Positions 44,905 through 61,009 of a stretch of 64,000 nt of DNA are shown in pieces. Position 1 is the first letter of the stretch. Each line of letters starts with the position of its first letter. The translations under genes and the position numbers were made by a program. The notes beneath the pieces are model-generated. The model saw only the letters and a program-made list of their open reading frames with translations, searched no databases and was not told the origin of the DNA. This stretch comes from Mycoplana azooxidifex (lineage in GTDB: Bacteria > Pseudomonadota > Alphaproteobacteria > Rhizobiales > Rhizobiaceae): assembly GCF_014196765.1 (NCBI RefSeq), contig NZ_JACIEE010000001.1:310001-374000 (forward strand), given 5' to 3'.

Positions 44905-44919
44905 GCCGCCGTTTCACGG

Positions 44920-44952
44920 AGGGCCGGCGGCGGATGACCGGCGGCCCTTTTT
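44920..44952 (+). terminator. Terminator-like hairpin after the binding-protein gene
   Basis: AGGGCCG (44920-44926) pairs perfectly with CGGCCCT (44942-44948), followed by TTTTT. It lies 16 bases after the binding-protein stop and 210 before the permease, so partial termination is likely. Confidence 0.75.
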
Positions 44953-45162
44953 CGTTGCCTGCAGATTGAACACGGCGCACGGTTGCTGCCGGCGACTGCG
45001 AACAGAAAAAGCAAGGTCGCAAACAGCACAGGCTGATGCGCCGCTTCATGTGAAAAGACAAGGATAACGAAAAGCCGGTGCGCACACGCACAAGAACAAT
45101 CCCGAAGGTTGTGCCCTGGCGCGATCGGCGGGGAGCGTAACCGGCGGAACAAGGGGATTGAT

Positions 45163-46063
45163 ATGGCACTGTGCGACTACTTGCCGGCGATGCTTTGCAA
45201 GTTTCCCGCGCTCAGCGACTCGACGATCCGCGCGGGGCGCAAGACGATCGACGACGGCTTCAAGGCCTTCGTGCGCTCCTACAGCGACATCATCGACACC
45301 GCCGTGCAGCCGCTACAGGTCTTCCTGAACTTTCTCGAACGCCTGTTCGTCACCTCGCCCTGGCCGATCATCCTCATCGCGATGCTCGTGATCGTCTATC
45401 TCGGCAGCCGCAGCGTGCGCGTCACGATCGGCACCGCGCTCGCCATGTACTTCATCGGCCTGTTCGGCCTTTGGAACGACGCGATGGTGACGCTGGCCAT
45501 GACCACCGTCTGCACCATCTTCGCGGTCCTGCTCGGCATCCCGATCGGCATCCTGATGGCGCGCTTCGACCGGGTGCAGGCAACCGTCAATCCCATTCTC
45601 GACGTGATGCAGACGATGCCGAGCTTCGTCTATCTCATCCCTGTCGTGATGATCTTCGGCATCGGCAAGGTTCCGGGCATGATCGCCGTCGTCATCTATG
45701 CCGTCCCGCCGATGATCCGGCTCACCAATCTCGGCATCCGCCTGGTCGACAAGGAGGTTCTGGAAGCGGCCGACGCCTTCGGCTCCTCAGGCTGGCAGAA
45801 GCTGAAGAACGTCCAGATCCCATTGGCGCTGCCGACCATCATGGCCGGCATCAACCAGACGATCATGATGTCGCTGGCCATGGTCGTCGTCGCCTCGATG
45901 GTGGGTGTCGGCGGGCTCGGCAAGAACGTGCTCGGCGCCATCAACAACCAGTTCTTCACCGTCGGCTTCCTCAACGGCTTCGCACTCGTCGCGATCGCCA
46001 TCATTTTCGACCGTACCAGCCAGGCCTTTGGCAAGCGCCTGCAGAAGCACTCGGAGGTAATCC

Positions 46064-46071
<8 letters not shown>
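45163..46071 (+). CDS. Glycine betaine-type ABC transporter, permease
   Basis: A 302-residue inner-membrane permease of the ProW/OpuAB type. The transmembrane part includes LFGLWNDAMVTLAMTTVCTI, MQTMPSFVYLIPVVMIFGIG and the ATPase-coupling segment around EAADAFGSSGWQKLKNVQIP. ATG 45163 has AAGGGG upstream. Its end overlaps the ATPase start by eight bases. A long spacer (44905-45162) precedes it and holds the terminator-like hairpin. Confidence 0.95.
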
Positions 46072-47113
<1,042 letters not shown>

Positions 47114-47445
47114 GCAAGCCTCAAGACACAGGAGGCTGCGGGTCGGAAAGCGCCCTGCCCGTCGCCGGCGACCGCCGAATCATGCCTCTTGTTCCGTGAA
47201 GCTCTCGCGCGCATTCCGGTGACGCGGGGGTAGCCCACACCCATTCCCACGGGCGAGGACGCCCGCAACGTAAGGCGTGCAACGCAGACAGCGCTTTCCT
47301 CGCCGCCGGCGCAACTCTCTCTGCCTTCAATGCTTGCACGGACATAAAGAAATCTTTATATCTAGATGCAAGCATGGCCTATACCGACATGACAATGTGC
47401 CTTCGACCGCCCGCCGGTCCGGGGACGGACGGGAAAGTTGAACCG
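47114..47445 (+). promoter_or_regulatory. Leader of the betaine-homocysteine methyltransferase-like gene
   Basis: A 332-base spacer without a gene. A perfect hairpin CGGGCG-AGGA-CGCCCG lies at 47250-47265. Nearer the gene, ATAAAG-AAAT-CTTTAT (47344-47359) is an AT-rich palindrome resembling operators of ArsR-type SAH-responsive regulators (SahR) at methyl-cycle genes of alphaproteobacteria, as I recall them. No SAM-II or SAH riboswitch landmarks were found. Confidence 0.5.
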
Positions 47446-48459
47446 ATGACGACCGAAAACAATGCGCTGGCAGCGCTGCTGGCCGAAAAGCCTTTCCTGC
47501 TCGCCGACGGTGCCACCGGCACCTCCCTGTTTGCCATGGGTCTGGAGGCCGGCGAGGCGCCGGAGCTCTGGAACGAGGCCAAGCCCGACAACATCACCCG
47601 GCTGCACCAGGACTTCGTCGATGCCGGCGCCGACATCATCCTGACCAACACCTTCGGCGGCACCCGCCATCGCCTCAAGCTGCACCACGCGCAGGACCGC
47701 GTCTTCGCGCTCAACAAGCGCGCCGCCGAGATCGCCCGCACCGTCGCCGACAAGGCACAGCGCAAGGTGATCGTCGCCGGCTCCGTCGGTCCCACCGGCG
47801 AACTGCTGATCCCGCTCGGCGCGCTAACCTATGACGACGCGGTTGCAGCCTTCGCCGAGCAGATCGAGGGCCTGAAGGCCGGCGGCGCCGACGTCGCCTG
47901 GATCGAGACCATGTCGTCGCCGGAAGAGATCCGTGCAGCCGCCGAGGCCGCCGTCAAGGTCGGCCTGCCCTTCGTCTATACCGGCTCGTTCGATACCGCC
48001 GGCAAGACGATGATGGGCCTGCATCCGAAGGACATCCACGGCGTTGCCGGTGACATCGGCACCGGCCCGCTCGCCGTCGGCGCCAATTGCGGCGTCGGCG
48101 CCTCCGATATCCTCTCATCCCTGCTCGACATGACCGGCGCCGACCCGTCTGCCACGATCGTGGTCAAGGGCAATTGCGGCATCCCGGAATATCGCGGCGC
48201 CGAAATCCATTATTCCGGCACGCCGCCGCTGATGGCCGAATATGCAAGGCTCGCCCGCGACGCCGGCGCCCGCATCATCGGTGGCTGCTGCGGCACCTCC
48301 TGCGAGCACCTCGCCGCCATGCGCCAAGCGCTCGACGCCCACGAACCGCGCGAGCGCCCGACGCTGGAGGCGATCGTCGAAGTCATCGGCCCCCTTCGCA
48401 ACAAGTCCGCAAACGAAAGCGCCCCCGCCCGCGAACGCAGCCGCCGCGGCAGGGCCTGA
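47446..48459 (+). CDS. Betaine-homocysteine S-methyltransferase-like protein
   Basis: A 337-residue homocysteine methyltransferase-fold enzyme, probably zinc dependent. It has LADGATGTSLFAMGLEAGEA, ILTNTFGGTRHRLKLH, the zinc ligands in GANCGVG and GGCCGTSCEHLAAM. It would move a methyl group from a betaine to homocysteine to give methionine. The last residues (ARERSRRGRA) form a basic tail like those of the corrinoid proteins nearby. ATG 47446 has GGGAAAG upstream; an in-frame ATG at 47374 is less likely because an operator-like palindrome sits at 47344. Confidence 0.88.
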   Translation: MTTENNALAALLAEKPFLLADGATGTSLFAMGLEAGEAPELWNEAKPDNITRLHQDFVDAGADIILTNTFGGTRHRLKLHHAQDRVFALNKRAAEIARTVADKAQRKVIVAGSVGPTGELLIPLGALTYDDAVAAFAEQIEGLKAGGADVAWIETMSSPEEIRAAAEAAVKVGLPFVYTGSFDTAGKTMMGLHPKDIHGVAGDIGTGPLAVGANCGVGASDILSSLLDMTGADPSATIVVKGNCGIPEYRGAEIHYSGTPPLMAEYARLARDAGARIIGGCCGTSCEHLAAMRQALDAHEPRERPTLEAIVEVIGPLRNKSANESAPARERSRRGRA

Positions 48460-48469
48460 GCGGACGCCC

Positions 48470-48645
48470 ACCTCCCCCTTGAGGGAGGAGGGTAGCCCCT
48501 CACCCTAACCCTCTCCCCGCGAGCGGGGAGAGGGGACGCGCCCAGGGCAAAGCACCCTGCACTGTCTCGCAGAATCCCGAATACGCCGCGGCAATCGCCC
48601 TTCTCCCCGCCTGCGGGGAGAAGGTGCCGGCAGGCGGATGAGGGG
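48470..48645. repeat. Intergenic palindromic repeats, types A-like, C and B
   Basis: Between the methyltransferase and the next gene lie a short A-like piece CCTCCCCCTTGAGGGAGGA (48471-48489), a type-C element (48495-48535, CTCTCCCCGCGAGCGGGGAG) and an inverted type-B element (48598-48645, CTTCTCCCCGCCTGCGGGGA). The same families are found at 36.1 kb and inside cobN. No gene is seen in this 298-base spacer. Confidence 0.85.
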
Positions 48646-48757
48646 CTGCGGGAGTTGCGCCCGGTCCGTCGCGCCCCGACCGATTCCCGCCGCTTGCACG
48701 CCCCCGCCCCGTCCTCTATCCGGGGAATCTGATAGAGATTCGCTGGAGACCGGGCCG

Positions 48758-49099
48758 ATGAACGCAGCCGCCTTTCCCGACCGGGACACAATCGCCGAGA
48801 AGATTTCCGCGCTCAGTGAGGCCGACCAGTCGTTCCTGAAGCTCCTGATGGAGAACCCGCAGCAGGACGAGAACCTGATGGCGGGACTCGATTTCCATCT
48901 CGCCACGGCGGCACAGGGACGGTTCCTGAACTCGCTCAAGCTGGAAAAGCTCGGCGCATGGTTCGGCAACACCGCACCTGCGCGCCTGCAGATGCGGCTG
49001 ATGGAGGCCGCCCGCGCGAGCCAGCACGCCGCCCACCAGGCCTTCCGCACCGGCCTGACCCGCTCGGGCGGCCTCGAAAGAGCCTATCCCAAGGTCTGA
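48758..49099 (+). CDS. Hypothetical 113-residue helical protein
   Basis: An uncharacterised protein, mostly helical by composition (DTIAEKISALSEADQSFLKL and later LEKLGAWFGNTAPARLQMRL). I recognise no domain. ATG 48758 has TGGAGAC upstream, and codon use looks like neighbouring genes. It ends before a minus-strand secreted protein. Confidence 0.65.
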   Translation: MNAAAFPDRDTIAEKISALSEADQSFLKLLMENPQQDENLMAGLDFHLATAAQGRFLNSLKLEKLGAWFGNTAPARLQMRLMEAARASQHAAHQAFRTGLTRSGGLERAYPKV

Positions 49100-49162
49100 G
49101 CTCCCCGCCCTGAGCCTTGAGGCCTATCGGTTGTCATGGCACAGCTCGAACGGACGACGCCT

Positions 49163-49906
49163 TCAATAGGGCAACCCACCCGCCACCGCGATCACCGTGC
49201 CCATGCGCGAAAAGCGGTCGTTGCGCCGGACGTCGGGCGCATAGAGGCTGGAAATACTGCCATCAAGAAAGAGCGCGCCCCGGCAGCCCAGCGCATCACG
49301 AAACAGTGTGGCGAAGTCGTGAAAGCGCACCGCACTTCGCGAAATCGCGAACGCCACGCGCCCGTCCGGCAGGATGCCGACGCCGTTGCGCACGTAAAGA
49401 CTGTCGCTATTCGGCAGGAAGCGCGGATGGATGCGGCCGTCAACGACCAGCATCGGTCCCGACTGGGTGGCGAACTGCACCTCCGGCTGCGCCTTTGCGA
49501 AAGCCTCCGTCTCCATCACCCCCGCCGCACCCTTGCCGACAAAGAACACGCCGTTCGGCTTGAGGAAGAAATTTCCCTCGCCCGCCTCGCGGTTCAGCGG
49601 ACGGCGCTCGCGCCCGTATTCGACGAGCAGCCCGACCGGCAAATAGCCAGGGTGATACATCCCGCCGTTCATCCCGAAGACGAGGAACTCCCGGTCCTCG
49701 CGCAGGATGTCGCGCACCGCCCAGTAGGTCAGCGGATCGGTCGCCCCGTCCGGCACCCCATAGACGCGGATCGTCTCGCGCGCCGGATCGAAGCTGCAGA
49801 TGATGTAGCTGTCGGCAAGATGGCGGATTTCCTCGCAGGCCGCGGAGGCCGGGCCGGCGGCGAGCGATGAGGCGGCGAGCGCAAGGCCGAGAAGATGGCG
49901 CTTCAT
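49163..49906 (-). CDS. Secreted phosphodiester glycosidase-family protein
   Basis: A 247-residue exported protein with signal peptide MKRHLLGLALAASSLAAGPA. Family-typical text includes NGGMYHPGYLPVGLLVE, GNFFLKPNGVFFVGKG, ATQSGPMLVVDGRIHP and LFLDGSISSLYAPDV. This is the NAGPA-like phosphodiester glycosidase domain, whose bacterial substrates are largely unknown. The start is set by the signal peptide; ATGs upstream lack one. Confidence 0.88.
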   Translation of the reverse strand: MKRHLLGLALAASSLAAGPASAACEEIRHLADSYIICSFDPARETIRVYGVPDGATDPLTYWAVRDILREDREFLVFGMNGGMYHPGYLPVGLLVEYGRERRPLNREAGEGNFFLKPNGVFFVGKGAAGVMETEAFAKAQPEVQFATQSGPMLVVDGRIHPRFLPNSDSLYVRNGVGILPDGRVAFAISRSAVRFHDFATLFRDALGCRGALFLDGSISSLYAPDVRRNDRFSRMGTVIAVAGGLPY

Positions 49907-49968
49907 GGATTGTCGAACTCCGAGATCGAGTCGATCACAAGCTCGCATCTTCGCCCCTCTGTCGCAAA

Positions 49969-50661
49969 TCACAGCCCCAGCGCGGCCATATGGAAGCGCA
50001 ACTGATCGTCGCAGTAGCGATATCCCTCACCGACCGGACAGGCGTTGCGGGCGAGGCAGCCGCCGGTCATGCAGCCTTCGCGGCCAGCCTCCGTACGCAG
50101 GTGCCCCCGGCAGGCCGCAACGTCGAAACCGGCGCCCGTCACCGCTACGGCCGGACATGGGCGCAGACACGGCCGGTCGCGACAGGTATCGCACGGATGT
50201 GGCCCGACCGGCTCCACATCCGCCTCGAGCGGGTGATCGAAGCCGAGCGCGCCGCGATAGCCGTGCCACAGGCCGAAACGGGGGTGGATCAGGATACCAA
50301 GCGGGGAGGCCCGCAGGCCCTCGGCCCGCATCGCCCATTGCTGGAAGGGCTGCCAGGGTGGGTCGGAGGGAAAATAGGCCGCGGCACCCCATGCTGCCGC
50401 GATCGGCGTGATCACCGCTTTCGACCAGGCGTCGAGCGGATCGCCGCCGTCGCGATCCGGCGCCTCGTCCTGCCAGGCGCGAAAATGCGGCCAGATCGAG
50501 CTTCCGATGTTTCCGATCAGCGCGACGCTCGCCGCCCTGCCGCCGCCGGGAAGGATGGGTGACGCCTCGCCCTCGGCAAAATTCACGAGGCCGCGCAAAA
50601 AAAGACCGTGCGGCTGGAGAGCCGCACGGATCGTATCGCTGGTGGGGCGTCCCGCCGTCAT
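49969..50661 (-). CDS. Iron-sulfur (4Fe-4S) protein next to mttB-like gene
   Basis: A 230-residue protein. A cysteine cluster CDTCRDRPCLRPCP (C-x2-C-x4-C-x3-CP) with further Cys in ACRGHLRTEAGREGCMTGGC and ARNACPVGEGYRY suggests one or more iron-sulfur centres, resembling the ferredoxin part of epoxyqueuosine reductase-type proteins. The N-terminal half is hydrophilic with SSIWPHFRAW. Adjacent to and co-oriented with the MttB-like gene, it could donate electrons for corrinoid reactivation, an inference only. Its ATG overlaps a tiny frame's stop (ATGA). Confidence 0.75.
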   Translation of the reverse strand: MTAGRPTSDTIRAALQPHGLFLRGLVNFAEGEASPILPGGGRAASVALIGNIGSSIWPHFRAWQDEAPDRDGGDPLDAWSKAVITPIAAAWGAAAYFPSDPPWQPFQQWAMRAEGLRASPLGILIHPRFGLWHGYRGALGFDHPLEADVEPVGPHPCDTCRDRPCLRPCPAVAVTGAGFDVAACRGHLRTEAGREGCMTGGCLARNACPVGEGYRYCDDQLRFHMAALGL

Positions 50662-50717
50662 TTCGGCTTCGGCCCCTGAAGTTCGTAGTGCGGTCGCCAG
50701 ACTTCCTTCTGGATCAT
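50658..50717 (-). CDS. Possible 19-residue coupling ORF or 3' extension of the mttB-like gene
   Basis: A frame MIQKEVWRPHYELQGPKPK lies between the MttB-like stop and the iron-sulfur gene, ending in an ATGA overlap with the latter. The same frame is open from the MttB-like TGA (50771-50769) for 36 codons. It may be a leader peptide for translational coupling, a decayed C-terminus, or noise. A GTG at 50726 is another possible start. Confidence 0.3.
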   Translation of the reverse strand: MIQKEVWRPHYELQGPKPK

Positions 50718-50768
50718 GTCTGCCACCGTCGATGCTCCGCCTTGCTCCCTGGCGCGTTCGGGAACCTT

Positions 50769-52343
50769 TCAGGTGAAGGCGTCGGGCATGGATTCCTTGC
50801 GCTTGGCGACATAGGCGAGCAGCGCCTCGTCGATCGCCGGGTCCAGGTAAGGTGCCTCGTACTGCTCCAGCCAGGTGCGGCACAGCGCATTGGCGCGCTG
50901 CTCGATGCGCTTGCTTCCCTCGATCTCCCACTGCTCGAACGAGTTGTTGTCGGCGAGCGGCGAGCGGTAGAACGCCGTCTGGAAGTTGGCCTGCGTATGC
51001 GCGCAGCCGAGATAGTGGCTGCCGGGCCCGACTTCCCTGATCGCGTCGAGCGCCTGGGCCTCTTCGGTCAGGTCGATGCCCTCGGCCATCTTCTGCATCA
51101 TGCCGAGCTGGTCCTGGTCGATCATGAACTTCTCGTAGGACGACACGAGGCCGCCCTCCAGCCATCCGGCCGCATGCAGCACGAAATTGGTACCGGCGAG
51201 CAGCGTCATGTTCAGCGTGTTGGCGCTCTCGTGCGCGGCCTGCGCATCCGGAACCTTGGAGCCGCAGAGCGAGCCGCCGGTCCTGAACGGCAGGCCGAGT
51301 CGGCGGGCGAGCTGGGCTGCACCATAGGAGACGAGCGACGGCTCCGGCGTGCCGAAGGTCGGCGCGCCCGACTGCATCGAGATAGAGGCGGCGAACGTGC
51401 CGAACAGCACCGGCGAGCCGGCGCGGATCAGCTGGGTGAAGGCCGCACCGGCCAGAACCTCGGCCAGGATCTGCGTCAACGTGCCTGCGACCGTGACCGG
51501 GCTCATCGCGCCAGACAGGATGAACGGCGAGACGACCGAGGCCTGGTTGTGGCGGGCATAGACCTTCAGCGCCCCCACCATGGTCTCGTCGAAGACCATC
51601 GGCGAATTGGCGTTGATCAGGTTCAGCGTCACGGTGTTCTGCTCGACGAAGTCTTCGCCGAAGACGAGCTTCGCCATGGCGATCGTGTCCTCGGCGCGCT
51701 CGGGCGCGGTCACCGAGCCCATGAACGGCTTGTCGGAATATTTGAGGTGGCTGTAGATCATGTCCAGGTGGCGCTTGTTCACCGGGACGTCCACCGGCTC
51801 GCAGACCGTGCCGCCCGACGAATGCATCGACGGCGCCATGTAGGCGAGCTTCACGAAATTGCGGAAGTCCTCGATCGTCGCATAGCGGCGGTTGCCCTCC
51901 AGGTCGCGCACGAAGGGAGGCCCGTAGACGGGGGCGAACACGGTCGCCTTGCCGCCAATCTCCACACTGCGGACCGGATTGCGGGCGTGCCAGGTGAAGG
52001 ATTTCGGAGCCGTCTTCAAGAGTTCGCGGCAGAGCCCCTTGGGAAAGTGCACCCGCTCGCCCTTGATTTCGCAACCAGCGTCCTTCCAGAGCGCCAAGGC
52101 CTCCGCATCGTCGCGGAACTCGATGCCGATCTCCTCCAGCACGGTGTCGGCATTGCGTTCGATCAGTTGCAGGCCTTCCTCGTCCAGCACCTCGTACTCG
52201 CGGATCTTGCGGGTGATGTAGGGCAAGGACGGGCCGGGGCCACCGCCGGAACGCGATGCACGGCGTGCCGCAGCTCCGCGTCCTTCGCCGCGTGCACGGC
52301 GACCGCCACCTTCGCCTTCCGGCTGCTCTGTCGTCAAACTCAT
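50769..52343 (-). CDS. MttB-family methyltransferase without pyrrolysine
   Basis: A 524-residue corrinoid-dependent methyltransferase of the trimethylamine methyltransferase (MttB/MtgB) superfamily. The core includes LPYITRKIREYEVLDEEGLQ, GPPFVRDLEGNRRYATIEDF, EQNTVTLNLINANSPMVFDE and AAGWLEGGLVSSYEKFMIDQ. No in-frame TAG interrupts it, so it resembles the non-pyrrolysine group that demethylates betaines. An Arg/Gly-rich N-terminal stretch (GEGGGRRARGEGRGAAARRA) precedes the fold. ATG 52343 has GAGGAAG upstream. Divergent from the corrinoid protein. Confidence 0.9.
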   Translation of the reverse strand: MSLTTEQPEGEGGGRRARGEGRGAAARRASRSGGGPGPSLPYITRKIREYEVLDEEGLQLIERNADTVLEEIGIEFRDDAEALALWKDAGCEIKGERVHFPKGLCRELLKTAPKSFTWHARNPVRSVEIGGKATVFAPVYGPPFVRDLEGNRRYATIEDFRNFVKLAYMAPSMHSSGGTVCEPVDVPVNKRHLDMIYSHLKYSDKPFMGSVTAPERAEDTIAMAKLVFGEDFVEQNTVTLNLINANSPMVFDETMVGALKVYARHNQASVVSPFILSGAMSPVTVAGTLTQILAEVLAGAAFTQLIRAGSPVLFGTFAASISMQSGAPTFGTPEPSLVSYGAAQLARRLGLPFRTGGSLCGSKVPDAQAAHESANTLNMTLLAGTNFVLHAAGWLEGGLVSSYEKFMIDQDQLGMMQKMAEGIDLTEEAQALDAIREVGPGSHYLGCAHTQANFQTAFYRSPLADNNSFEQWEIEGSKRIEQRANALCRTWLEQYEAPYLDPAIDEALLAYVAKRKESMPDAFT

Positions 52344-52649
52344 GTCCGTACTTCCTCGGTTCTTGAACGGCGCTCCGTCGCCTGATGCTCATATGCTACC
52401 AAGCGATCGACTCGGGACGGGTCTTAATGCGCCAACGGCTGGCGCAGGGGAGACACCGCCGGAACCCTCCAGTCGCCCCTTTGATTTGCCCTGTCAATCC
52501 CGGCGTCCAGCCGCTACCATCAACATATTCGCGTCGTCGCTTTTTGCTCCATGCGACGTCGCTTTCGAAATCGGATCTTAACGGCAACATCGCTAACACT
52601 GGAATGCCCGGCCCGTGCCTGCCGCGCCACTGGAGACGAGGAGACATTC
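52344..52649. promoter_or_regulatory. Divergent control region between mttB-like and corrinoid-protein genes
   Basis: A 306-base spacer without a gene. GCGTCGTCGCTTT (52531-52543) and GCGACGTCGCTTT (52553-52565) are 13-base direct repeats with one mismatch and a 22-base period, about two helical turns. The core GCGACGTCGC is itself a perfect palindrome. This is a plausible double operator for coordinating both transcription units; the regulator is not in the window by any visible clue. Confidence 0.5.
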
Positions 52650-53348
52650 ATGGCAGACGACGAAATCATTCTCGCCGACCTCTCCGACGAAGAGCTCGTG
52701 CAGCAGATGCACGACGATCTCTACGACGGCCTGAAGGAGGAGATCGAGGAAGGGACCAACATCCTGCTCGAACGCGGCTGGGCCCCCTACGACGTTCTCA
52801 CCCAGGCCCTCGTCGAAGGCATGCGCATCGTCGGCATCGATTTCCGCGACGGCATCCTCTTCGTCCCCGAAGTCCTTCTGTCGGCCAATGCGATGAAGGC
52901 CGGCATGTTCATCCTGCGCCCGCTCCTCGCCGCCACCGGCGCGCCGAAGCAGGGCAAGATGGTCATCGGCACCGTCAAGGGCGACATCCACGACATCGGC
53001 AAGAACCTCGTCGGCATGATGATGGAGGGCGCCGGCTTCGACGTCATCGACCTCGGCATCAACAACCCGGTCGAGAACTACCTGGAAGCGATCGAGCGCG
53101 AGCAGCCGGATATCCTCGGCATGTCGGCGCTGCTGACGACGACCATGCCCTACATGAAGGTCGTGATCGACACGCTGAAGGAAAAGGGCATGCGCGACGA
53201 CTACGTCGTCCTGGTCGGCGGCGCGCCGCTGAACGAGGAGTTCGGCAAGGCTGTCGGTGCCGACGCTTACTGCCGCGACGCGGCCGTGGCCGTCGAGACG
53301 GCCAAGGACTTCATGAAGCGCAAGCACAACATGCTGGCCGGCGCCTGA
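52650..53348 (+). CDS. Corrinoid protein of a methyltransferase system
   Basis: A 232-residue B12-binding protein. The axial-ligand motif is GDIHDIGKNLV with His114, followed by LGMSALLTTTMPYMKVVID and VLVGGAPLNEEFG of the cobalamin Rossmann domain. The N-terminal helical domain (LFVPEVLLSANAMKAGMFIL) caps the corrinoid. It should carry the methyl group between the MttB-like enzyme and the tetrahydrofolate methyltransferase. ATG 52650 has GAGGAG upstream. Confidence 0.95.
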   Translation: MADDEIILADLSDEELVQQMHDDLYDGLKEEIEEGTNILLERGWAPYDVLTQALVEGMRIVGIDFRDGILFVPEVLLSANAMKAGMFILRPLLAATGAPKQGKMVIGTVKGDIHDIGKNLVGMMMEGAGFDVIDLGINNPVENYLEAIEREQPDILGMSALLTTTMPYMKVVIDTLKEKGMRDDYVVLVGGAPLNEEFGKAVGADAYCRDAAVAVETAKDFMKRKHNMLAGA

Positions 53349-53405
53349 GACCGAAAAGGCGGCGTCCGCTTGCGCAGGCGCCGCCGCGATCTCATATGCT
53401 GATGA

Positions 53406-53564
53406 TTACTGGGCTGCCCGGGCGACATCCCTGCCCGCAGCCTCTGTGGCGTTGACGGTGTTGGCCGTGTCCTGGCCGATTCCGCGGATGGTGTTGCCGC
53501 AGGCGCTGAGCGAGGCGAGCGCTGCGAGTACGAGGCTGATCTTGGACAGGGTCTTGATGGTCAT
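53406..53564 (-). CDS. Entericidin-like small lipoprotein
   Basis: A 52-residue protein with a lipoprotein signal (SLVLAALASLSAC) and the entericidin-type body GNTIRGIGQDTANTVNATEA. Such lipoproteins sit in the membrane or outer membrane; in enterics they form a toxin-antidote pair, but many bacteria hold lone copies. It is antisense inside the spacer between the corrinoid protein and the DUF1638 gene, 17 bases from the latter's start codon. Confidence 0.85.
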   Translation of the reverse strand: MTIKTLSKISLVLAALASLSACGNTIRGIGQDTANTVNATEAAGRDVARAAQ

Positions 53565-53581
53565 GGTCGGAGTTCCTCTCG

Positions 53582-54241
53582 ATGGATGCGAACACAAATG
53601 AAGTATGGGAAGACAAGTCCCGGCTTCAACGCGCGAACGGCGAAAAAGTTCGCGTAATCGCCTGTGGCGCCATCGCACGCGAAGTGATCGCCGTCTGCAA
53701 GGCAAATCGCCTCGACCATATCGACCTGCAATGTCTTCCCGCCATCTGGCACGCCTACCCGGAAAAAATCACCCCCGGCATCGAGCGGGCGATCACAGAG
53801 GCGCGCGCAGACGGGATCGAGCGGATATTCATCGGCTATGCTGACTGCGGCACGGGCGGGCTGCTGGACGTGCTCTGCACACGCGAGGGCGTCCAGCGCA
53901 TCGAAGGTCCGCACTGTTATTCCTTCTTCGCCGGCAACGAGGCGTTCTCGCGCAACGACGACGACGTTACCTCCTTCTTCCTCACTGATTTCCTGGCCCG
54001 CCAGTTCGAGGCCTTCGTCGTCGAACCGCTGGGGCTCGACCGGCATCCGCAGCTGCTGCCGATGTACTTCGGCAACTACCGCAAGCTCGTCTATCTCTCC
54101 CAGGTCGAGGACGAGGCCCTCCAGCAAAAGGCGCGGCAGGCGGCCGACTATCTCGGCCTCGAATACGAATACCGCTTCACCGGCTATGGCGACCTCTCCC
54201 CGGCCCTGACCGCTCTCGCGACGTCCTCCACCGACGCTTGA
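53582..54241 (+). CDS. DUF1638-family protein
   Basis: A 219-residue cytosolic protein of unknown function. The text VRVIACGAIAREVIAV, AIWHAYPEKITPGIERAI, IGYADCGTGGLLDVLCTREG and GPHCYSFFAGNEAF fits the DUF1638 family; several Cys and His might bind metal. It is found near corrinoid methyltransferase genes in other organisms as I recall, matching this context. The only ATG that keeps the conserved start is 53582, with GGAG upstream. Confidence 0.85.
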   Translation: MDANTNEVWEDKSRLQRANGEKVRVIACGAIAREVIAVCKANRLDHIDLQCLPAIWHAYPEKITPGIERAITEARADGIERIFIGYADCGTGGLLDVLCTREGVQRIEGPHCYSFFAGNEAFSRNDDDVTSFFLTDFLARQFEAFVVEPLGLDRHPQLLPMYFGNYRKLVYLSQVEDEALQQKARQAADYLGLEYEYRFTGYGDLSPALTALATSSTDA

Positions 54242-54367
54242 CGATGGCTTGTGGCGGACGAGATCCTCGCGCATAGAATGCACGATTTCAAAAGATCCTG
54301 ACGCTAAGGTTCGCCCGGAAAGATCCCGTCGGCTGGCGGCGGGGCGATGCGGGACGGCGGGACAGGC

Positions 54368-55204
54368 ATGACAGACATCGCAGGAGAAGGCACGGCAGCA
54401 GACGACGGCCAGGCACCATCGCGGCCACCAGACGCTGCGATGGGCCGCGTCGTCGTCCTCACCCAGGGCGGTCCCAACCCGGAAATCCTCGTCAACGCAT
54501 TGAAGCGCCGCGTCCCCGATCTCCTCGTCGTCGAGGAGAAGCCGGAATCCAAGAAAGCGATGCTGCGCCAGAAGGTGCGCCGCCTCGGCTGGGTCACCGC
54601 ATTCGGCCAGATGGCGACGATGGCTGTGTCGAAATTCGGCAAGCCGCTCGCCCGCCGCCGCGCCAGCGAGATCGTCCGCCAGTTCGGTGTCGACGTCCGG
54701 CCCGACCCGGCGCTGCCGCGAATCTCGATCGACAGCGCCAACAGTGCGGAATTCGTGCGCCTGGTCGGCGAACTGAAGCCCGCCGTGCTGTTCCTCGTCA
54801 GCTGCCGCATCCTCAGGCCCGAAACGCTGCGGGCCGTTCCCTGCCCGGTGCTCAACTTCCACGCCGGCATCAATCCGCAGTATCGTGGTCAGCAGGGCGG
54901 CTACTGGGCACGGGTGATGGGCGACGAGGCGAACTTCGGCGCGACCGTCCACCTGGTCGACGCAGGCGTCGATACTGGCGGCGTTATCGGCCAGGTCCGC
55001 GTGACGCCCTCGCGCAAGGACACGATGCACACCTATCCGCTGCTCCTGACCGCAGCCGGCACCGATATCGCTGCCCGCGCCGTGGCCGACGCCCTCGCCG
55101 GCGCGGTGCGGCCGCAGGAGACGACGACGGAACCGTCCCGCCAATGGTACCACCCGACGCTCTGGCGGTGGCTGTGGACCGGAATGACGCGCGGGATCTG
55201 GTGA
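54368..55204 (+). CDS. Formyltransferase-fold protein
   Basis: A 278-residue protein whose C-terminal half matches formyl transferases: PVLNFHAGINPQYRGQQGGY contains Asn-x-His and the loop, and GATVHLVDAGVDTGGVIGQV the catalytic Asp. The first part (MGRVVVLTQGGPNPEILV) carries a nucleotide-like loop not usual in Fmt. The C-terminal OB domain of Fmt is missing. It could hydrolyse or transfer formyl groups of 10-formyl-tetrahydrofolate in this one-carbon cluster. Start between 54347 and 54368 is uncertain. Confidence 0.75.
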   Translation: MTDIAGEGTAADDGQAPSRPPDAAMGRVVVLTQGGPNPEILVNALKRRVPDLLVVEEKPESKKAMLRQKVRRLGWVTAFGQMATMAVSKFGKPLARRRASEIVRQFGVDVRPDPALPRISIDSANSAEFVRLVGELKPAVLFLVSCRILRPETLRAVPCPVLNFHAGINPQYRGQQGGYWARVMGDEANFGATVHLVDAGVDTGGVIGQVRVTPSRKDTMHTYPLLLTAAGTDIAARAVADALAGAVRPQETTTEPSRQWYHPTLWRWLWTGMTRGIW

Positions 55205-55209
55205 TACTT

Positions 55210-55245
55210 GGCCAGTGCGCCGGCCAGTGCCTTGGCCAGTGCCTC
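55210..55245. repeat. Three tandem 12-base repeats
   Basis: GGCCAGTGCGCC, GGCCAGTGCCTT and GGCCAGTGCCTC follow one another from 55210 to 55245, just after the formyltransferase-like gene. They lie in a 179-base spacer with no other gene and may reflect slippage rather than function. Confidence 0.6.
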
Positions 55246-55383
55246 GGCAGGCCGTCATTGCCATTGCGCAAGCGGAGCATGCCCGGCCGAATCCCACGTC
55301 GTTTTTGAGCGATGCCCGGTCGTGGCGAGCGCAGCCACCGGGCCCTGCAGCAAGCATTGTCGGAACCGAGGAGTACTTTCACC

Positions 55384-55686
55384 ATGGCAGACCGCATCAT
55401 CGTCTATTGGCGCGACATCCCCGCCCAGGTCATCATCAAGCAGGGCCGCAGGACGGCCAAGCGCGAACTGTCGCTGCGCTTCACCGAGGCGATCGACATG
55501 TGCGCCATGCGCACGGGCGCCGCCGAGACCGACGACTACCTCGCCGAATGGCGCAAGGCCGATCCGGTCCCGGTTTCCGACGACCTGGAGGCCGAGGCCG
55601 ACAGGGCCGCAGCTGAGTTCGAGGCAGCCTACGACCGCGAACGGCTGGTGGCGCTGGTCAAGGCCGGGGGCCGCGACGATGGCTGA
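55384..55686 (+). CDS. PF13769-type small protein (annotated elsewhere as virulence factor)
   Basis: A 100-residue acidic protein (MADRIIVYWRDIPAQVIIKQ, then FTEAIDMCAMRTGAAETDDY). It matches what I recall of the Virulence_fact domain, a family without known biochemistry. ATG 55384 has GAGGAG upstream. It overlaps the MetV-like gene by eight bases, so it belongs to the one-carbon operon and probably works with that reductase, an inference. Confidence 0.7.
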   Translation: MADRIIVYWRDIPAQVIIKQGRRTAKRELSLRFTEAIDMCAMRTGAAETDDYLAEWRKADPVPVSDDLEAEADRAAAEFEAAYDRERLVALVKAGGRDDG

Positions 55687-56254
55687 CCCCAAGCCCGGCA
55701 ACGCTGCCCCCGCCAAGAAGGCGGCGACCGGCGCCTATACGCCGGTCGGGGTCTCGCCGGACCGCCGCTCCCGGCACAAATATACGGTCCGGCTCTGGGC
55801 TGTCCGTCATTCGCGCTTCTTCGAGTGGTTCTACAATCGATTCGCCGCAGCCTTCCTGCTGCTCGATCCGGTCTGGAGGCTGTTCGGATACCAGCGCGTC
55901 GAGCGGCCGGTCACCTTCGTCGAGCGCCATGTGAAGGGCTTCCTGTTCGACTGTCGCATGTGCGGCCAGTGCGTGCTGTCGTCGACGGGCATGTCGTGTC
56001 CGATGAACTGTCCCAAGCAGTTGCGCAACGGTCCCTGCGGCGGCGTTCGGGCCAACGGCAATTGCGAGGTCGAGCCGGATATGCCCTGCGTCTGGGTGCA
56101 GGCCTGGAAGGGATCGCAGAACATGGCGAATGGAAATGCCATCATGAACGTGCAGAAGCCGGTGAACCAGTCGCTGCGCGAGACATCCTCCTGGCTGCGC
56201 GTCACCGCCGAGGCCGCGGCGGCCCGCGAGGCTGCGAGCGGAAAGGACGCCTGA
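55679..56254 (+). CDS. MetV-like protein, methylenetetrahydrofolate reductase C-terminal type
   Basis: A 191-residue cysteine-rich protein with CRMCGQCVLSSTGMSCPMNC and CPKQLRNGPCGGV plus two later Cys, suited to zinc or iron-sulfur binding. This is the MTHFR_C/MetV partner that forms MetVF reductases in acetogens. It overlaps the previous gene by eight bases and is followed by metF after three bases, the order expected for a complex. A hydrophobic helix (FFEWFYNRFAAAFLLLDPVW) lies at the N-terminus. Confidence 0.82.
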   Translation: MADPKPGNAAPAKKAATGAYTPVGVSPDRRSRHKYTVRLWAVRHSRFFEWFYNRFAAAFLLLDPVWRLFGYQRVERPVTFVERHVKGFLFDCRMCGQCVLSSTGMSCPMNCPKQLRNGPCGGVRANGNCEVEPDMPCVWVQAWKGSQNMANGNAIMNVQKPVNQSLRETSSWLRVTAEAAAAREAASGKDA

Positions 56255-56257
56255 TCC

Positions 56258-57352
56258 ATGGCCCATATCGACGAGAACCCCCTCGGCCCCCACCTGCCGC
56301 TCGATCCCCAGCCCGGCCATTCGTCCCTCGGCCGGCTGGAACGCGTGCTCAGGCGCGGCGAATTCGCCGTCACCGCCGAGCTGAACCCGCCCGACAGCGC
56401 CAATCCGGAAGACGTCTACGAACGCGCCGCGATCTTCGACGGCTGGGTGGACGGCATCAATGCGGTCGATGCCTCCGGCGCCAACTGCCACATGTCGTCG
56501 GTCGGCATCTGCGCGCTCCTGACCCGTATGGGCTATGCCCCGATCATGCAGATCGCCTGCCGTGACAAGAACCGCATCGCCATCCAGGGCGACGTGCTGG
56601 GCGCGGCCGCCATGGGCGTCTGCAACATCATGTGCCTCACGGGCGACGGCGTGCAGGCCGGCGACCAGCCCGGCGCCAAGCCGGTCTTCGATCTCGACTG
56701 CATGTCGCTGCTCGAGACCGTCCGCATCATGCGCGACAATTCCAAGTTCCTGTCCGGCCGCAAGCTGACGACGCCGCCGAAGGTCTTTCTCGGCGCGGCG
56801 ATCAACCCCTTCGCGCCCCCCTACGATTTCCGCCCCTACCGGCTCGCCAAGAAGATCGAGGCCGGCGCGCAGTTCGTGCAGAGCCAGTACTGCTTCGACG
56901 TGCCGATGTTCAGGGAATACATGAAAAAGGTCCGCGACCTCGGCCTGCACGAGAAATGCTTCATCCTCGTCGGCGTCGGTCCGATGGCGTCGGCCAAGAC
57001 GGCCAAGTGGATCCGCTCCAACGTACCCGGCATCCATATTCCGGATTCCATCATCGCCCGCCTCGAAGGCGCGCAGGACCAGAAGAAGGAAGGCAAGCAG
57101 CTCTGCATCGACATCATCAACGAGGTGAAGGAGATCGAGGGCGTGTCCGGCGTTCACGTGATGGCCTACCGCCAGGAGGAATACGTCGCCGAGATCGTCC
57201 ACGAATCCGGCGTCCTCAAGGGCCGCAAGCCCTGGACGCGCGAACCGAACCCGGTCGATACCCTCGTTGCCGAGCGCCTGGAGGAAGCCCGCGCCGGCAA
57301 GGAGCAGAACCAGCAGGAAATGGCCGAGATCGCCGCCCAACACCCGCATTGA
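56258..57352 (+). CDS. metF: Methylenetetrahydrofolate reductase (MetF)
   Basis: A 364-residue TIM-barrel flavoenzyme interconverting methylene- and methyl-tetrahydrofolate. The text RRGEFAVTAELNPPDSANPE contains the catalytic Glu region, with QIACRDKNRIAIQGDVLGAA, FLGAAINPFAPP and FVQSQYCFDVPMFREYMKKV. It is longer than E. coli MetF (about 296) and adjoins a MetV-like partner, so it is probably a MetVF type. In this context it may run in the oxidative direction. Confidence 0.93.
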   Translation: MAHIDENPLGPHLPLDPQPGHSSLGRLERVLRRGEFAVTAELNPPDSANPEDVYERAAIFDGWVDGINAVDASGANCHMSSVGICALLTRMGYAPIMQIACRDKNRIAIQGDVLGAAAMGVCNIMCLTGDGVQAGDQPGAKPVFDLDCMSLLETVRIMRDNSKFLSGRKLTTPPKVFLGAAINPFAPPYDFRPYRLAKKIEAGAQFVQSQYCFDVPMFREYMKKVRDLGLHEKCFILVGVGPMASAKTAKWIRSNVPGIHIPDSIIARLEGAQDQKKEGKQLCIDIINEVKEIEGVSGVHVMAYRQEEYVAEIVHESGVLKGRKPWTREPNPVDTLVAERLEEARAGKEQNQQEMAEIAAQHPH

Positions 57353-57437
57353 TCGCGGCGGGCGCCATCCGACACGCCACCTTGTAACCCGAAAATTCGC
57401 GCGATAGCTTGTCGCCCACACCACCAGAGGAAACTTA

Positions 57438-58403
57438 ATGACCCGCACCATCGTCGCTTCCGCCACCCGCGAGATCGTCATCGGCTTCGACCAGCCGTTC
57501 TGCGTCATCGGCGAGCGGATCAACCCGACCGGCCGCAAGAAGCTGGCAGCCGAGATGATCGAGGGCAATTTCGACACGGTCATCAAGGACGCGCTGGAAC
57601 AGGTCGCGGCCGGCGCCACCATGCTCGACGTCAATGCGGGCGTCACCTCGGTCAACCCGAACGAGACCGAGCCGGGACTGCTGGTCAAGACGCTGGAAAT
57701 CGTCCAGGGCCTGGTCGACGTGCCGCTCTCGATCGACAGCTCGGTAACGGCTGCGATCGAGGCCGGCCTCAGGGTCGCCAAGGGTCGGCCGCTGGTCAAC
57801 TCGGTCACCGGCGAGGAAGAAAAGCTCGAGGCGATCCTGCCGCTGGTCAAGAAGTACAACGTGCCGGTCGTCGCGATCTCCAACGACGAGACCGGCATCT
57901 CGATGGACCCGGACGTGCGCTTCGCCGTCGCCAAGAAGATCGTCGAGCGCGCCATGGACCATGGCATCAAGCCGGAAGACATCGTCGTCGATCCGCTCGT
58001 CATGCCGATCGGCGCGCTGGGCGACGCCGGCCGCCAGGTGTTCGCGCTGCTGCGCCGCCTGCGCGAGGAGCTGAAGGTCAACACCACCTGCGGCCTCTCC
58101 AACATCTCCTTCGGCCTGCCGCACCGCCACGGCATCAACGCCGGCTTCATCCCCATGGTGATCGGCGCCGGCATGACGAGCGCGATCATGAACCCCTGCC
58201 GCCCGCAGGAGATGGAGGCCGTGCGCGCCGCCAACGTCCTGAACGGCACCGACGCCAACTGCAGCAACTGGATCATGACCTACCGCGACCACAAGCCCGC
58301 CGAGGGCGGCGCCGTGGCAGCCGCCTCGCCCGCCCCGTCGGCAGGTGGCGGCCGTCGTGGCGGACGTGCCGGCCGCACCGGCGGGGGCGCGTCGCGGGAG
58401 TAG
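57438..58403 (+). CDS. Methyltetrahydrofolate:corrinoid methyltransferase (DHPS fold)
   Basis: A 321-residue pterin-binding enzyme that moves methyl groups between tetrahydrofolate and a corrinoid protein. DHPS-fold landmarks are VIGERINPTGRKKLAAEMIE, GATMLDVNAGVTSVNPNETE, LSIDSSVTAAIEAGL and GLSNISFGLPHRHGINAGFI. The C-terminus adds a Gly/Arg tail (GGGRRGGRAGRTGGGASRE) not part of the fold. ATG 57438 has AGAGGAAAC upstream. Confidence 0.93.
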   Translation: MTRTIVASATREIVIGFDQPFCVIGERINPTGRKKLAAEMIEGNFDTVIKDALEQVAAGATMLDVNAGVTSVNPNETEPGLLVKTLEIVQGLVDVPLSIDSSVTAAIEAGLRVAKGRPLVNSVTGEEEKLEAILPLVKKYNVPVVAISNDETGISMDPDVRFAVAKKIVERAMDHGIKPEDIVVDPLVMPIGALGDAGRQVFALLRRLREELKVNTTCGLSNISFGLPHRHGINAGFIPMVIGAGMTSAIMNPCRPQEMEAVRAANVLNGTDANCSNWIMTYRDHKPAEGGAVAAASPAPSAGGGRRGGRAGRTGGGASRE

Positions 58404-58408
58404 CGTCG

Positions 58409-58756
58409 ATGACCCCGCGTCGCCTGCGCAAGGATGCCTCCACGCTCTGGTTCCAGGCGCCCTTCGTCATGGCGATGCGGATCCACGAGATGCAGATGGC
58501 GGCGCTGACCGGCAAATCGCAGGACGCAGCCGAGATGAACCGCATGGTGACGGAGAAGGTGATGGCCACAGCCGAAAGTGCCGTGGCCGTCAACATGGCG
58601 ATCTCGCGCGCGGCCTTCGGCGCGGCGATGCAGATGATGACCGGCGGCCGTCCCTCCACCGCCAAGGCCGGCGAAACCATCGCCGCGGCAGCCCTCAAGC
58701 CTTACGGAAAGCGCGTGCGCGCCAATGCGCGGCGCCTGTCGAAAAAGAAATCCTGA
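58409..58756 (+). CDS. Methionine-rich helical protein of unknown function
   Basis: A 115-residue basic protein (MTPRRLRKDASTLWFQAPFV) with about 12 Met, 11 of them within some 60 residues (VMAMRIHEMQM, NRMVTEKVM, AAMQMMTGG). It looks helical, recalling phasin-like proteins, but no family is certain. It begins five bases after the previous stop, with GGGAG upstream, and precedes the activator gene. Role unknown. Confidence 0.65.
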   Translation: MTPRRLRKDASTLWFQAPFVMAMRIHEMQMAALTGKSQDAAEMNRMVTEKVMATAESAVAVNMAISRAAFGAAMQMMTGGRPSTAKAGETIAAAALKPYGKRVRANARRLSKKKS

Positions 58757-58933
58757 TCCCGCCAATGTGACAGGCGCACGTGCCCTCCCTGAAATGATGC
58801 TGGCAGATCTTTCCAAGTCGGGACTTTCCATGTCGGGATTTGACGGTTATCAGGCGGCATTCCGGTGCAGTCTGGTAACGAGGCGTGATGCGGCGGCCCG
58901 CTAGGCCCGCGTCCGGGAGGAAAGACTTTATCC

Positions 58934-61009
58934 ATGCGCATCGAAGGCAATTCCGAAAACGAGAGCAACATGAGCGAAGCGGCGCAGACCGATCCCCTCG
59001 TCCTCTTCATGCCGTCCGGCAAGCGCGGCCGCTTCCCCGTGGGCACCCCGGTCCTCGACGCGGCGCGCAAGCTCGGTGTTTATGTCGAAAGCGTCTGCGG
59101 CGGCCGAGCCACCTGCGGGCGCTGTCAGATCGAGGTGCAGGAAGGCAGCTTCGCCAAGCACAAGATCGTCTCCTCGCTGACACATATCTCGGAAAAGGGC
59201 CCCAAGGAGGAGCGCTACGAGAAGGTCCGCGGCCTGCCCGATGGCCGTCGCCTCTCCTGTTCCGCCCTCATCCTCGGCGACCTCGTCGTCGACGTGCCGC
59301 AGGATACCGTCATCAACGCCCAGGTGGTGCGCAAGGCCGCGACCGACCGCGTCATCGAGCGCAACGCCGCCGTCCAGCTCTGCTATGTCGAGGTGGACGA
59401 GCCCGACATGCACAAGCCGCTCGGCGACCTCGACCGGCTCAAGGTGGTGCTGGAGAAGGACTGGGGCTGGAAGGATCTGCTGATCGCGCCCCATCTGATC
59501 CCGCAGGTGCAGGGTATCTTGCGCAAGGGCAACTGGGGCGTGACCGCCGCGATCCACCGCGACATGGATAGTTCCCGCCCCTTCATCATCGGCCTGTGGC
59601 CGGGCCTGAAGAACGAAGCCTACGGCATTGCCTGCGACATCGGCTCGACGACGATCGCCATGCATCTGGTCTCGCTCCTCTCCGGCCGTATCGTCGCTTC
59701 ATCCGGCACCTCCAACCCGCAGATCCGCTTCGGCGAGGACCTGATGAGTCGGGTCTCCTACGTGATGATGAACCCGGACGGCCGGGAAGCGATGACCAAG
59801 GCGGTGCGCGAGGCCGTCAACGGCCTGATCGGCAAGGTCTGCGACGAGGGCGGCGTCGACCGCCACGACGTTCTCGACATGGTCTTCGTCGCCAACCCGA
59901 TCATGCACCACCTGTTCCTCGGCATCGACCCGACCGAGCTCGGCCAGGCGCCGTTCGCGCTCGCCGTCTCCGGCGCGCTGCAATACTGGGCAAGCGACAT
60001 CGACATCGACGTCAACCGCGGTGCCCGCGTCTACCTCCTGCCCTGCATTGCCGGCCATGTCGGCGCGGACGCCGCCGGCGCCACGCTTTCCGAAGGCCCC
60101 TACCGCCAGGACAAGATGATGCTGCTCGTCGACGTCGGCACCAATGCCGAGATCGTGCTCGGCAACCGGCAGCGCGTCGTCGCCGCCTCGTCGCCCACGG
60201 GCCCCGCCTTCGAGGGCGCGGAAATCTCGTCCGGCCAGCGCGCCGCGCCGGGCGCGATCGAGCGCGTGCGCATCGATCCCGTCACCCTTGAACCGCGCTT
60301 CCGCGTCATCGGCGTCGACCAGTGGTCCGACGAGGACGGCTTCGCCGAGGCCGCGGCGTCCGTCGGCGTCACCGGCATCTGCGGCTCGGCGATCATCGAG
60401 GTCGTGGCCGAGATGTACCTGACCGGCCTGATCTCGGAAGACGGCGTGGTGGACGGCGCGATGGCGGCCAGGACGCCGCGTATCATCGCCAACGGCCGCA
60501 CCTTCTCCTACCTGCTGCAGGACGGCGAGCCGCGCATCACGGTGACGCAGAACGACATCCGCGCGATCCAGCTCGCCAAGGCAGCACTCTATGCGGGGAT
60601 CAAGCTCCTGATGGAGAAGCAGGGCGTCGACCATGTCGACACGATCCGCTTCGCCGGCGCCTTCGGCTCCTTCATCGATCCGAAATACGCGATGGTGCTC
60701 GGCCTGATCCCGGACTGCGACCTTTCCGAGGTCAAGGCGGTCGGCAACGCCGCCGGCACCGGCGCGCTGATGGCGCTGCTCAACCGCGGCCACCGCCGCG
60801 AGATCGAGCAGGTGGTCGGCCGGATCGAGAAGATCGAGACGGCACTGGAAGGCAATTTCCAGCAGCTCTTCATCGATGCCATGGCGATGCCGAACAAGGT
60901 CGACGCCTTCCCCAACCTTTCGACCGTCGTCACCCTGCCCGAACGAAAAGCGCCGTCCGACGACGGCGGCGAAGGCGGCGGCCGCCGCAGGCGCCGCAGC
61001 CGGGAATAG
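58934..61009 (+). CDS. RACo-like reductive activator of corrinoid protein (2Fe-2S plus ASKHA)
   Basis: A 691-residue ATP-driven activator that would return cob(II)alamin to cob(I)alamin. The N-terminal plant-type 2Fe-2S domain has Cys55, Cys61, Cys64 and Cys109 (VCGGRATCGRCQIEV, LSCSAL). An actin-like ASKHA part starts ACDIGSTTIAMHL near residue 232, with LLVDVGTNAEIVLGN and GTGALMALLNRGHRREIEQV later. It ends in an Arg-rich tail (GGRRRRRSRE) and has no C-terminal 4Fe-4S clusters, so it is closer to RACo than RamA. An ATG at 58970 is an alternative start. Confidence 0.9.
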   Translation: MRIEGNSENESNMSEAAQTDPLVLFMPSGKRGRFPVGTPVLDAARKLGVYVESVCGGRATCGRCQIEVQEGSFAKHKIVSSLTHISEKGPKEERYEKVRGLPDGRRLSCSALILGDLVVDVPQDTVINAQVVRKAATDRVIERNAAVQLCYVEVDEPDMHKPLGDLDRLKVVLEKDWGWKDLLIAPHLIPQVQGILRKGNWGVTAAIHRDMDSSRPFIIGLWPGLKNEAYGIACDIGSTTIAMHLVSLLSGRIVASSGTSNPQIRFGEDLMSRVSYVMMNPDGREAMTKAVREAVNGLIGKVCDEGGVDRHDVLDMVFVANPIMHHLFLGIDPTELGQAPFALAVSGALQYWASDIDIDVNRGARVYLLPCIAGHVGADAAGATLSEGPYRQDKMMLLVDVGTNAEIVLGNRQRVVAASSPTGPAFEGAEISSGQRAAPGAIERVRIDPVTLEPRFRVIGVDQWSDEDGFAEAAASVGVTGICGSAIIEVVAEMYLTGLISEDGVVDGAMAARTPRIIANGRTFSYLLQDGEPRITVTQNDIRAIQLAKAALYAGIKLLMEKQGVDHVDTIRFAGAFGSFIDPKYAMVLGLIPDCDLSEVKAVGNAAGTGALMALLNRGHRREIEQVVGRIEKIETALEGNFQQLFIDAMAMPNKVDAFPNLSTVVTLPERKAPSDDGGEGGGRRRRRSRE

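Follow-up and report, generated by a model that had tools for sequence, protein, structure and literature searches.

Gene content of the locus

The 64,000-nucleotide stretch of Mycoplana azooxidifex DNA analysed here (the window; contig 1, positions 310001-374000 of a 5.88 Mb genome) carries at 47446-61009 a corrinoid methyl-transfer cluster, which is probably an MtgBCDE-type system passing a methyl group from a quaternary amine to folate. These limits, taken from a preliminary description made from the sequence alone, are correct and both are real gene ends, 47446 being the second in-frame Met of an open reading frame (ORF) at 47374-48459. The main genes (Table 1) encode an MtgE-like homocysteine methyltransferase, an MttB-family methyltransferase (MtgB), a corrinoid protein (MtgC), a methyltetrahydrofolate:corrinoid methyltransferase (MtgD), MetV and MetF, a RACo-type activator, DUF1638, a small iron-sulfur protein referred to as FeS, and a protein of family PF13769 ('Virulence_fact'). 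The "conserved unknowns" of the preliminary description correspond to DUF1638, the PF13769 protein, a formyltransferase-like protein, a phasin-like protein, and x153, while an NAGPA-type gene at 49163-49972 was not named there.

Table 1. Genes of the cluster and of the importer preceding it. Fractions of 80 refer to the FeS-selected Rhizobiaceae loci and those of 32 to the DUF1638 loci, both introduced in the text.
Feature	Position in window	Strand	Evidence and remarks
OpuAC-type substrate-binding protein of betaine-type ATP-binding cassette (ABC) importer	43906..44904	+	PF04069 1e-54; 35/80 loci (many end before the gene)
Importer permease	45109..46071	+	PF00528 2.7e-27; 35/80 loci
Importer ATPase	46064..47113	+	PF00005 4.7e-33; 63/80 loci
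MtgE-like homocysteine S-methyltransferase, annotated betaine-homocysteine methyltransferase	47446..48459	+	PF02574 4.1e-64; PRK07534 569 bits; ORF opens at 47374
x153, Rhizobiaceae protein	48755..49099	+	No Pfam family; 58/80 loci; ORF opens at 48638
NAGPA-type protein (phosphodiester glycosidase family), its gene in one row with mttB and FeS	49163..49972	-	PF09992 4e-20; overlaps FeS stop; 70/80 loci
FeS, small CblC/QueG-like protein	49969..50661	-	Eight invariant Cys; AlphaFold2 predicted local distance difference test (pLDDT) 90.9; Foldseek MMACHC 4.2e-5
MtgB-like MttB-family member	50769..52343	-	PF06253 3e-233; in-frame stop absent
MtgC-like corrinoid protein	52650..53348	+	PF02310, PF02607; DxHxxG; ORF opens at 52551
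DUF1638, presumed B12-reactivation partner	53582..54241	+	PF07796 1.4e-26
Formyltransferase-like protein, lineage-specific	54347..55204	+	PF00551 2.3e-13; 44/80 and 9/32 loci
PF13769 'Virulence_fact' protein	55384..55686	+	PF13769 8.2e-26; ORF opens at 55312
MetV-like Fe-S partner of MetF	55679..56254	+	PF12225 5.4e-28
MetF-like methylenetetrahydrofolate reductase	56258..57352	+	PF02219 2.5e-33
MtgD-like methyltetrahydrofolate:corrinoid methyltransferase	57438..58403	+	PF00809 9e-29; PRK07535 399.7 bits
Phasin-like small protein	58409..58756	+	PhaP6 model 49 bits, below its cut-off of 100; 45/80 loci
RACo/RamA-type ATP-dependent corrinoid activator, N-terminal 2Fe-2S domain	58934..61009	+	PF14574 3.1e-87, PF17651, PF17650, Fer2

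The methyl-transfer core

The catalytic parts named in the preliminary description were borne out by family searches. MtgB had been described as an MttB-family enzyme without pyrrolysine, and its 524-residue frame is uninterrupted; the pyrrolysine-containing trimethylamine methyltransferase was rejected on a TIGR02369 score of 283.7 bits against a cut-off of 525 and for want of an in-frame amber codon. Among solved structures, MtgB scores 1091 bits to 4yyc and 409 bits to 9yce, titled 'Glycine betaine methyltransferase', and is 43% identical over 468 residues to the chain of 2qne; we take 4yyc to be an S. meliloti protein, and 2qne and 9yce to be MtgB of Desulfitobacterium hafniense. The corrinoid protein is separate from MtgB and bears its DxHxxG motif at residue 112, MtgD lies well above the NCBIfam cut-off of 259 bits, and all four domain families of the RACo-like activator match, with 299 bits to the solved RACo 3zyy. 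MetF stands directly beside its MetV-like partner, an arrangement likewise known from acetogen-type MetVF; a search for solved relatives of MetV returned none.

The first gene had been called betaine-homocysteine methyltransferase-like. The family match holds, whereas a stand-alone enzyme of that type is disfavoured, the nearest solved relative being the homocysteine module of MetH (2.6e-40) as against human BHMT (2.9e-12). Cys239, Cys305, and Cys306 of the ORF, lying in GANCGVG and GGCC, align with those of the MetH modules, so that the BHMT cysteine set is present; we take these cysteines to be zinc ligands. The gene probably encodes the homocysteine module of a split methionine synthase and not a stand-alone BHMT, a view disputed by PMC12366255.

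As a MetH-type PF02965 reactivation domain (420 bits, in a 1286-residue frame) and a second methylenetetrahydrofolate reductase (MTHFR; 295 bits) are encoded elsewhere in the genome, the cluster looks mainly catabolic. Nine GCV_T-domain matches were also found in the genome, at least one of them in a dimethylglycine-dehydrogenase-like protein, and such proteins could process the demethylated product. Across the 240 alphaproteobacterial genomes introduced below, the MetH reactivation-domain matches fell into two classes, a strong one at about 380-447 bits and a weak one, mostly at about 126-190 bits, whose members frequently had an internal stop.

Conservation and co-occurrence

Gene content was compared in two sets of loci and in a set of genomes. 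DUF1638 occurs in 32 of the 61 genomes searched among relatives, and the 32 DUF1638 loci taken from them (one genome gave two, and seven loci are shorter than 19 kb) hold mtgC in 31 cases, mttB and mtgD in 28 each, RACo in 27, PF13769 in 25, FeS in 21, mtgE in 18, and metV and metF in 16 each. The parts recur across these loci, which argues that their grouping is more than chance. The formyltransferase-like gene, x153, and the phasin-like gene (9 loci each) and the NAGPA-type gene (7 loci) were rejected as core parts on these counts.

A second set comprised Rhizobiaceae loci selected through FeS, being the best 80 of 575 confirmed, close relatives favoured, with 6 of the 80 shorter than 19 kb. 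All 80 carry mttB; mtgC and DUF1638 are present in 75 each, mtgE in 73, PF13769 in 69, mtgD in 67, metV/metF in 63, and RACo in 58. The locus of S. meliloti 4H41 keeps the same order as the window (mtgE, FeS, mttB, mtgC, DUF1638, PF13769, metV, metF, mtgD, RACo). In Rhizobium sp. 32-5/1 (L145), mttB, DUF1638, and metF each gave two matches in the cluster, as if it were partly duplicated.

Among 240 evenly drawn alphaproteobacterial genomes, mttB was found in 51, RACo in 55, PF13769 in 45, and DUF1638 in 43, with RACo accompanying mttB in 49 of 51 genomes and DUF1638 in 42 of 43. The preliminary description had regarded these parts as known from anaerobes, to which the MttB and RACo counts show that they are not confined.

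A MetF-like gene does not always fill its place in the row. Among nine listed loci without MetVF that have both PF13769 and mtgD, six carry another MTHFR-family gene between the two (two of them tested, at 1.6e-9 and 8.6e-7). In six of the FeS-selected loci, mostly of Neorhizobium (L134, L137, L139, L148, L149, and L150), PF13769 directly precedes mtgD with no MetF between.

A probable MtgBCDE-type system and its alternatives

Phaeobacter inhibens depends for methionine on a methionine synthase of the split type together with a RamA-like protein and DUF1638, and the authors remark that S. meliloti carries the corresponding genes despite having MetH (PMC5764234, 2018). In Ruegeria pomeroyi, both methionine formation and growth on glycine betaine depended on MtgC and MtgD (PMC12478193, 2025). 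The separate MttB-family, corrinoid, pterin-binding, and homocysteine-binding proteins of R. pomeroyi all recur in the window, as do the RamA/RACo protein, DUF1638, the extra MetF near mtgD, and the nearby cob genes of the R. pomeroyi and S. meliloti systems; in S. meliloti, MtgBCDE, both reactivation modules, and a cobalamin operon lie together according to the same authors (PMC12478193). Judged from sequence, every testable feature of the published MtgBCDE system is found in the cluster, and the preliminary model, in which a methyl group passes from a quaternary amine via an MttB-type enzyme and cob(I)alamin to tetrahydrofolate and on to oxidation or methionine, agrees with the genetically supported MtgBCDE of R. 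pomeroyi. The window departs from that system in its MetV-MetF pair, FeS, PF13769, formyltransferase-like, NAGPA-type, and phasin-like genes; virulence, ferredoxin, iron-sulfur, MMACHC, and MetV are terms not mentioned in the main text of PMC12478193. With the P. inhibens split synthase, the window shares three modules and two reactivation proteins, and differs by the MetH-type reactivation domain in its genome and by mttB in the cluster. From the D. hafniense MtgB it differs in its aerobic host setting and in its corrinoid protein, which is reported to have arisen separately (PMC12478193).

At a probability of about 0.77, the cluster is read as an MtgBCDE-type system that delivers to folate a methyl group of a quaternary amine, for which glycine betaine is the likeliest candidate, with FeS and the PF13769 protein among its proposed parts. 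The amine would enter via the adjacent importer, and MtgB would load one methyl onto the cob(I)alamin carried by MtgC, whence MtgD would pass it to tetrahydrofolate. Methyltetrahydrofolate may then be oxidised to methylenetetrahydrofolate by MetV-MetF, or, as an alternative fate, the MtgC-bound methyl may be used by MtgE for methionine. When cob(I)alamin is oxidised by accident to cob(II)alamin, RACo and DUF1638 would restore it; FeS may assist in corrinoid reduction or repair, and the PF13769 protein may be an unrecognised working part alongside DUF1638, MtgD, or RACo. The analysis itself shows the gene content, the family assignments, the conservation of the cluster, the co-occurrence of its parts, and the predicted FeS fold; the substrate, the direction of flux in this organism, and the roles of FeS and PF13769 are those that we infer. 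The cluster is another rhizobial copy of the published system and not new in kind, with FeS and PF13769 seeming to be its still unexplained parts; a route once deemed typical of anaerobes is thus commonplace among aerobic rhizobia, bacteria that encounter betaines from plants.

Several observations weigh against this interpretation in one or another of its parts. The sequence does not single out one substrate, and glycine betaine is our inference: four more MttB-family genes lie in the genome (C2:284526-286016, C11:11121-12623, C5:328687-330186, and C1:674372-675862), and in identities and a quick tree covering four of the five paralogues (the C11 copy being left out), window MtgB could not be separated by likeness to the betaine enzyme from one of them, own2. 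The two match the betaine-enzyme chain equally closely (43.2% and 43.3%, respectively), ahead of the other two paralogues at 36% and 29%. The most divergent mttB adjoins a Rieske oxygenase gene and two large dimethylglycine-dehydrogenase-like frames (L071:9355-18084), possibly a second, B12-free route for betaine, and after the C2 copy comes a gene of NADH:flavin oxidoreductase type (L068:10563-12608), perhaps, by likeness, that of a cyclic-betaine demethylase. The P values for the co-occurrence of the parts ignore relatedness. The MetF slot is empty in 3 of the 9 MetVF-less loci and in 6 of the 80 FeS-selected loci; the oxidation of methyltetrahydrofolate is therefore usually, not always, encoded there. 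In addition, homologues of mtgE alone yielded methionine from betaine and homocysteine in vitro (PMC12366255).

It is unlikely, without being far-fetched, that the same machinery serves another substrate, with window MtgB acting on proline betaine, carnitine, choline, or a further methylated amine. With five MttB-family genes in one genome, substrates would be divided among them, own2 lies just as near the betaine enzyme, and PMC12478193 cites members of the MttB family that act on other substrates; the adjacent betaine-family importer of OpuAC type and the requirement of the homologous R. pomeroyi system for growth on glycine betaine speak for glycine betaine instead. Less probable still is that the first gene encodes a true B12-free betaine-homocysteine methyltransferase with the corrinoid genes forming a separate system beside it. 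The NCBIfam betaine-homocysteine S-methyltransferase model is matched far above its cut-off of 338 bits, and P. inhibens Bmt used betaine and dimethylsulfoniopropionate in vitro (PMC12366255), but the MetH homocysteine modules are nearer than human BHMT, and the betaine-binding residues of the human enzyme are absent from the S. meliloti MtgE homologue according to PMC12478193. The slightest chance is given to a cluster working chiefly as a split methionine synthase (MtgCDE with reactivation) in which MttB is secondary: the dependence of P. inhibens methionine on the split subunits, the RamA-like protein, and DUF1638 favours it (PMC5764234). Against it stand the MetH-type domain in this genome (metE was not searched for), the lower frequency of mtgE than of mttB in the DUF1638 loci (18 versus 28 of 32), and the pairing of mttB with RACo across the 240 genomes.

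FeS, a CblC/QueG-like protein

The iron-sulfur protein of the preliminary description is a 230-residue protein, whose eight cysteines are invariant in alignments of 17 sequences (A1; the window copy and 16 of 21 relatives, with L042, L045, L049, L053, and L056 left out because they extend far upstream or contain a stop within the frame) and of 45 sequences (A2; the window copy and 44 of 60 non-redundant candidates); A3 comprised the window copy and 34 of 54 such candidates. Searched as a longer frame, it matched no Pfam family at the usual threshold. Against solved structures, human MMACHC was found at 0.013 with the single sequence, while a profile of the 17 sequences gave only ferredoxins with weak scores (the best at 0.044), MMACHC following at 0.9. 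The Pfam MMACHC family (PF16690) matches 13 of the 17 at E<=1, the best at 6.9e-5, with the window copy at 12.3 bits, below the gathering cut-off of 27; a divergent relative gave no MMACHC match at 0.1. The AlphaFold2 model is confident (predicted TM-score 0.87 beside the pLDDT in Table 1), and MMACHC/CblC chains occupy ranks 1-19 of its fold search of the PDB (TM-score about 0.5-0.6, root-mean-square deviation about 6 A), followed by PceA (9.7e-4), NpRdhA (2.4e-3), and QueG (6.5e-3).

All of these folds bind cobalamin, three of them with two [4Fe-4S] clusters and CblC with none. Like the class III B12/[4Fe-4S] proteins QueG and RdhA, FeS consists of a predicted nitroreductase-type module followed by a cysteine set for two [4Fe-4S] clusters, whereas CblC has no ferredoxin-like part. 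The 4+1+3 order of its cysteines resembles the QueG ligands listed in PMC4646009, with spacing that is similar yet different, and FeS lacks the C-terminal alpha-helical repeat domain of QueG, ending 22 residues past the last cluster cysteine. It was accordingly rejected both as a plain Pfam MMACHC member, the window copy falling below the cut-off, and as a plain QueG, for want of the C-terminal domain. Weak matches of the FeS profile in other genomes led to Fe-S proteins of 440-470 residues (L202, L203, and L206) that form a sequence bridge between FeS and QueG; one gave a QueG match at 5.5e-7, and two carry an SCP2 domain.

The closest named relative among the matches listed is that of Rhizobium rhizolycopersici DBTS2 (77%). 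FeS matched in 61 of the 240 alphaproteobacterial genomes, and counts are based on the 49 strong ones, 12 partial weak matches (E 6.4e-12 to 6.9e-4) being dropped; through the phylum, 71 of 398 genomes match, 59 of them strongly, and 19 of those 59 lie outside the class.

FeS is a candidate corrinoid reductase or repair protein. The bolder proposal, that it forms a minimal new B12/[4Fe-4S] family in which a CblC-like cobalamin module, wired for electrons through two clusters of its own, would reduce the corrinoid of methyltransferases in aerobes or remove an alkyl group from it (MtgC in Rhizobiaceae), is offered tentatively and may well be wrong. A general cobalamin-processing protein or small-molecule enzyme merely placed beside mttB in Rhizobiaceae is a serious contender, though short of even odds. 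In its favour, mttB is missing from 12 of the 49 FeS genomes, 11 of which have a MetH reactivation domain, and in 20 loci outside Rhizobiaceae FeS is mostly unlinked, the fetched stretches containing mttB in one case and mtgC with DUF1638 in one, with no neighbouring gene family common to more than 4 of the 20; on the same distribution, FeS was rejected as exclusive to MtgBCDE. Against it, mttB lies within 600 bases of FeS in all 80 FeS-selected loci, and FeS is enriched in mttB genomes (37 of 49, relatedness ignored). The authors of the QueG structure considered that more B12/[4Fe-4S] families may exist and are hard to find for want of a motif (PMC4646009), and FeS is a concrete candidate for one. 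If the proposed corrinoid role held, aerobic bacteria would have a second reactivation route in addition to RACo, which is driven by ATP; PF13769 and DUF1638 would be other components, not yet described, of the complex for reactivation or transfer, and FeS could show how oxygen-exposed cells keep cob(I)alamin methyltransferases alive.

The PF13769 protein and DUF1638

PF13769 is accompanied by RACo in all 45 of the alphaproteobacterial genomes that have it (one RACo match lying below its cut-off), by mttB in 44, and by DUF1638 in 39. Fewer than 400 bases separate it from DUF1638 in 28 of these 39 genomes, and in 27 of the 45 its distance from RACo is under 7 kb. The Fisher P values, with relatedness ignored, were below 1e-33. 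In a control search it was also found in Bacillus subtilis, in which neither MttB nor RACo was detected. Its family name is misleading, as the genome distribution points to C1/B12 metabolism. In a literature search of partial coverage, the term PF13769 was not found, and neither FeS nor PF13769 was described in this role.

The DUF1638 residues C28, C51, H57, C89, H111, and C112 are invariant (>=97%) across 29 relatives, and these five to six Cys/His positions suggest a metal site. Its structural model (pLDDT 80.7) gave no match to solved folds in the PDB at E<=0.001. For P. inhibens DUF1638, no specific role was offered by the authors (PMC5764234).

Surroundings of the cluster

The betaine-type importer described as lying just upstream is indeed present at 43906-47113, with OpuAC, BPD_transp_1, and ABC_tran matches. 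The aerobic context was likewise upheld: about 5-14.6 kb into the window lie the FixO, COX1, and FixG families of a cbb3 oxidase together with a P-type ATPase, and the cobalamin genes CobD, CobO, CobN, CobW, and CbtA are found at 23.5-38.7 kb. A cobalamin riboswitch lies at 38898-39213 on the minus strand, beside the cobalt-transport and cob genes. Within the cluster, the N-x-H and D-x-G-x-D-x-G motifs of the formyltransferase-like gene look intact.

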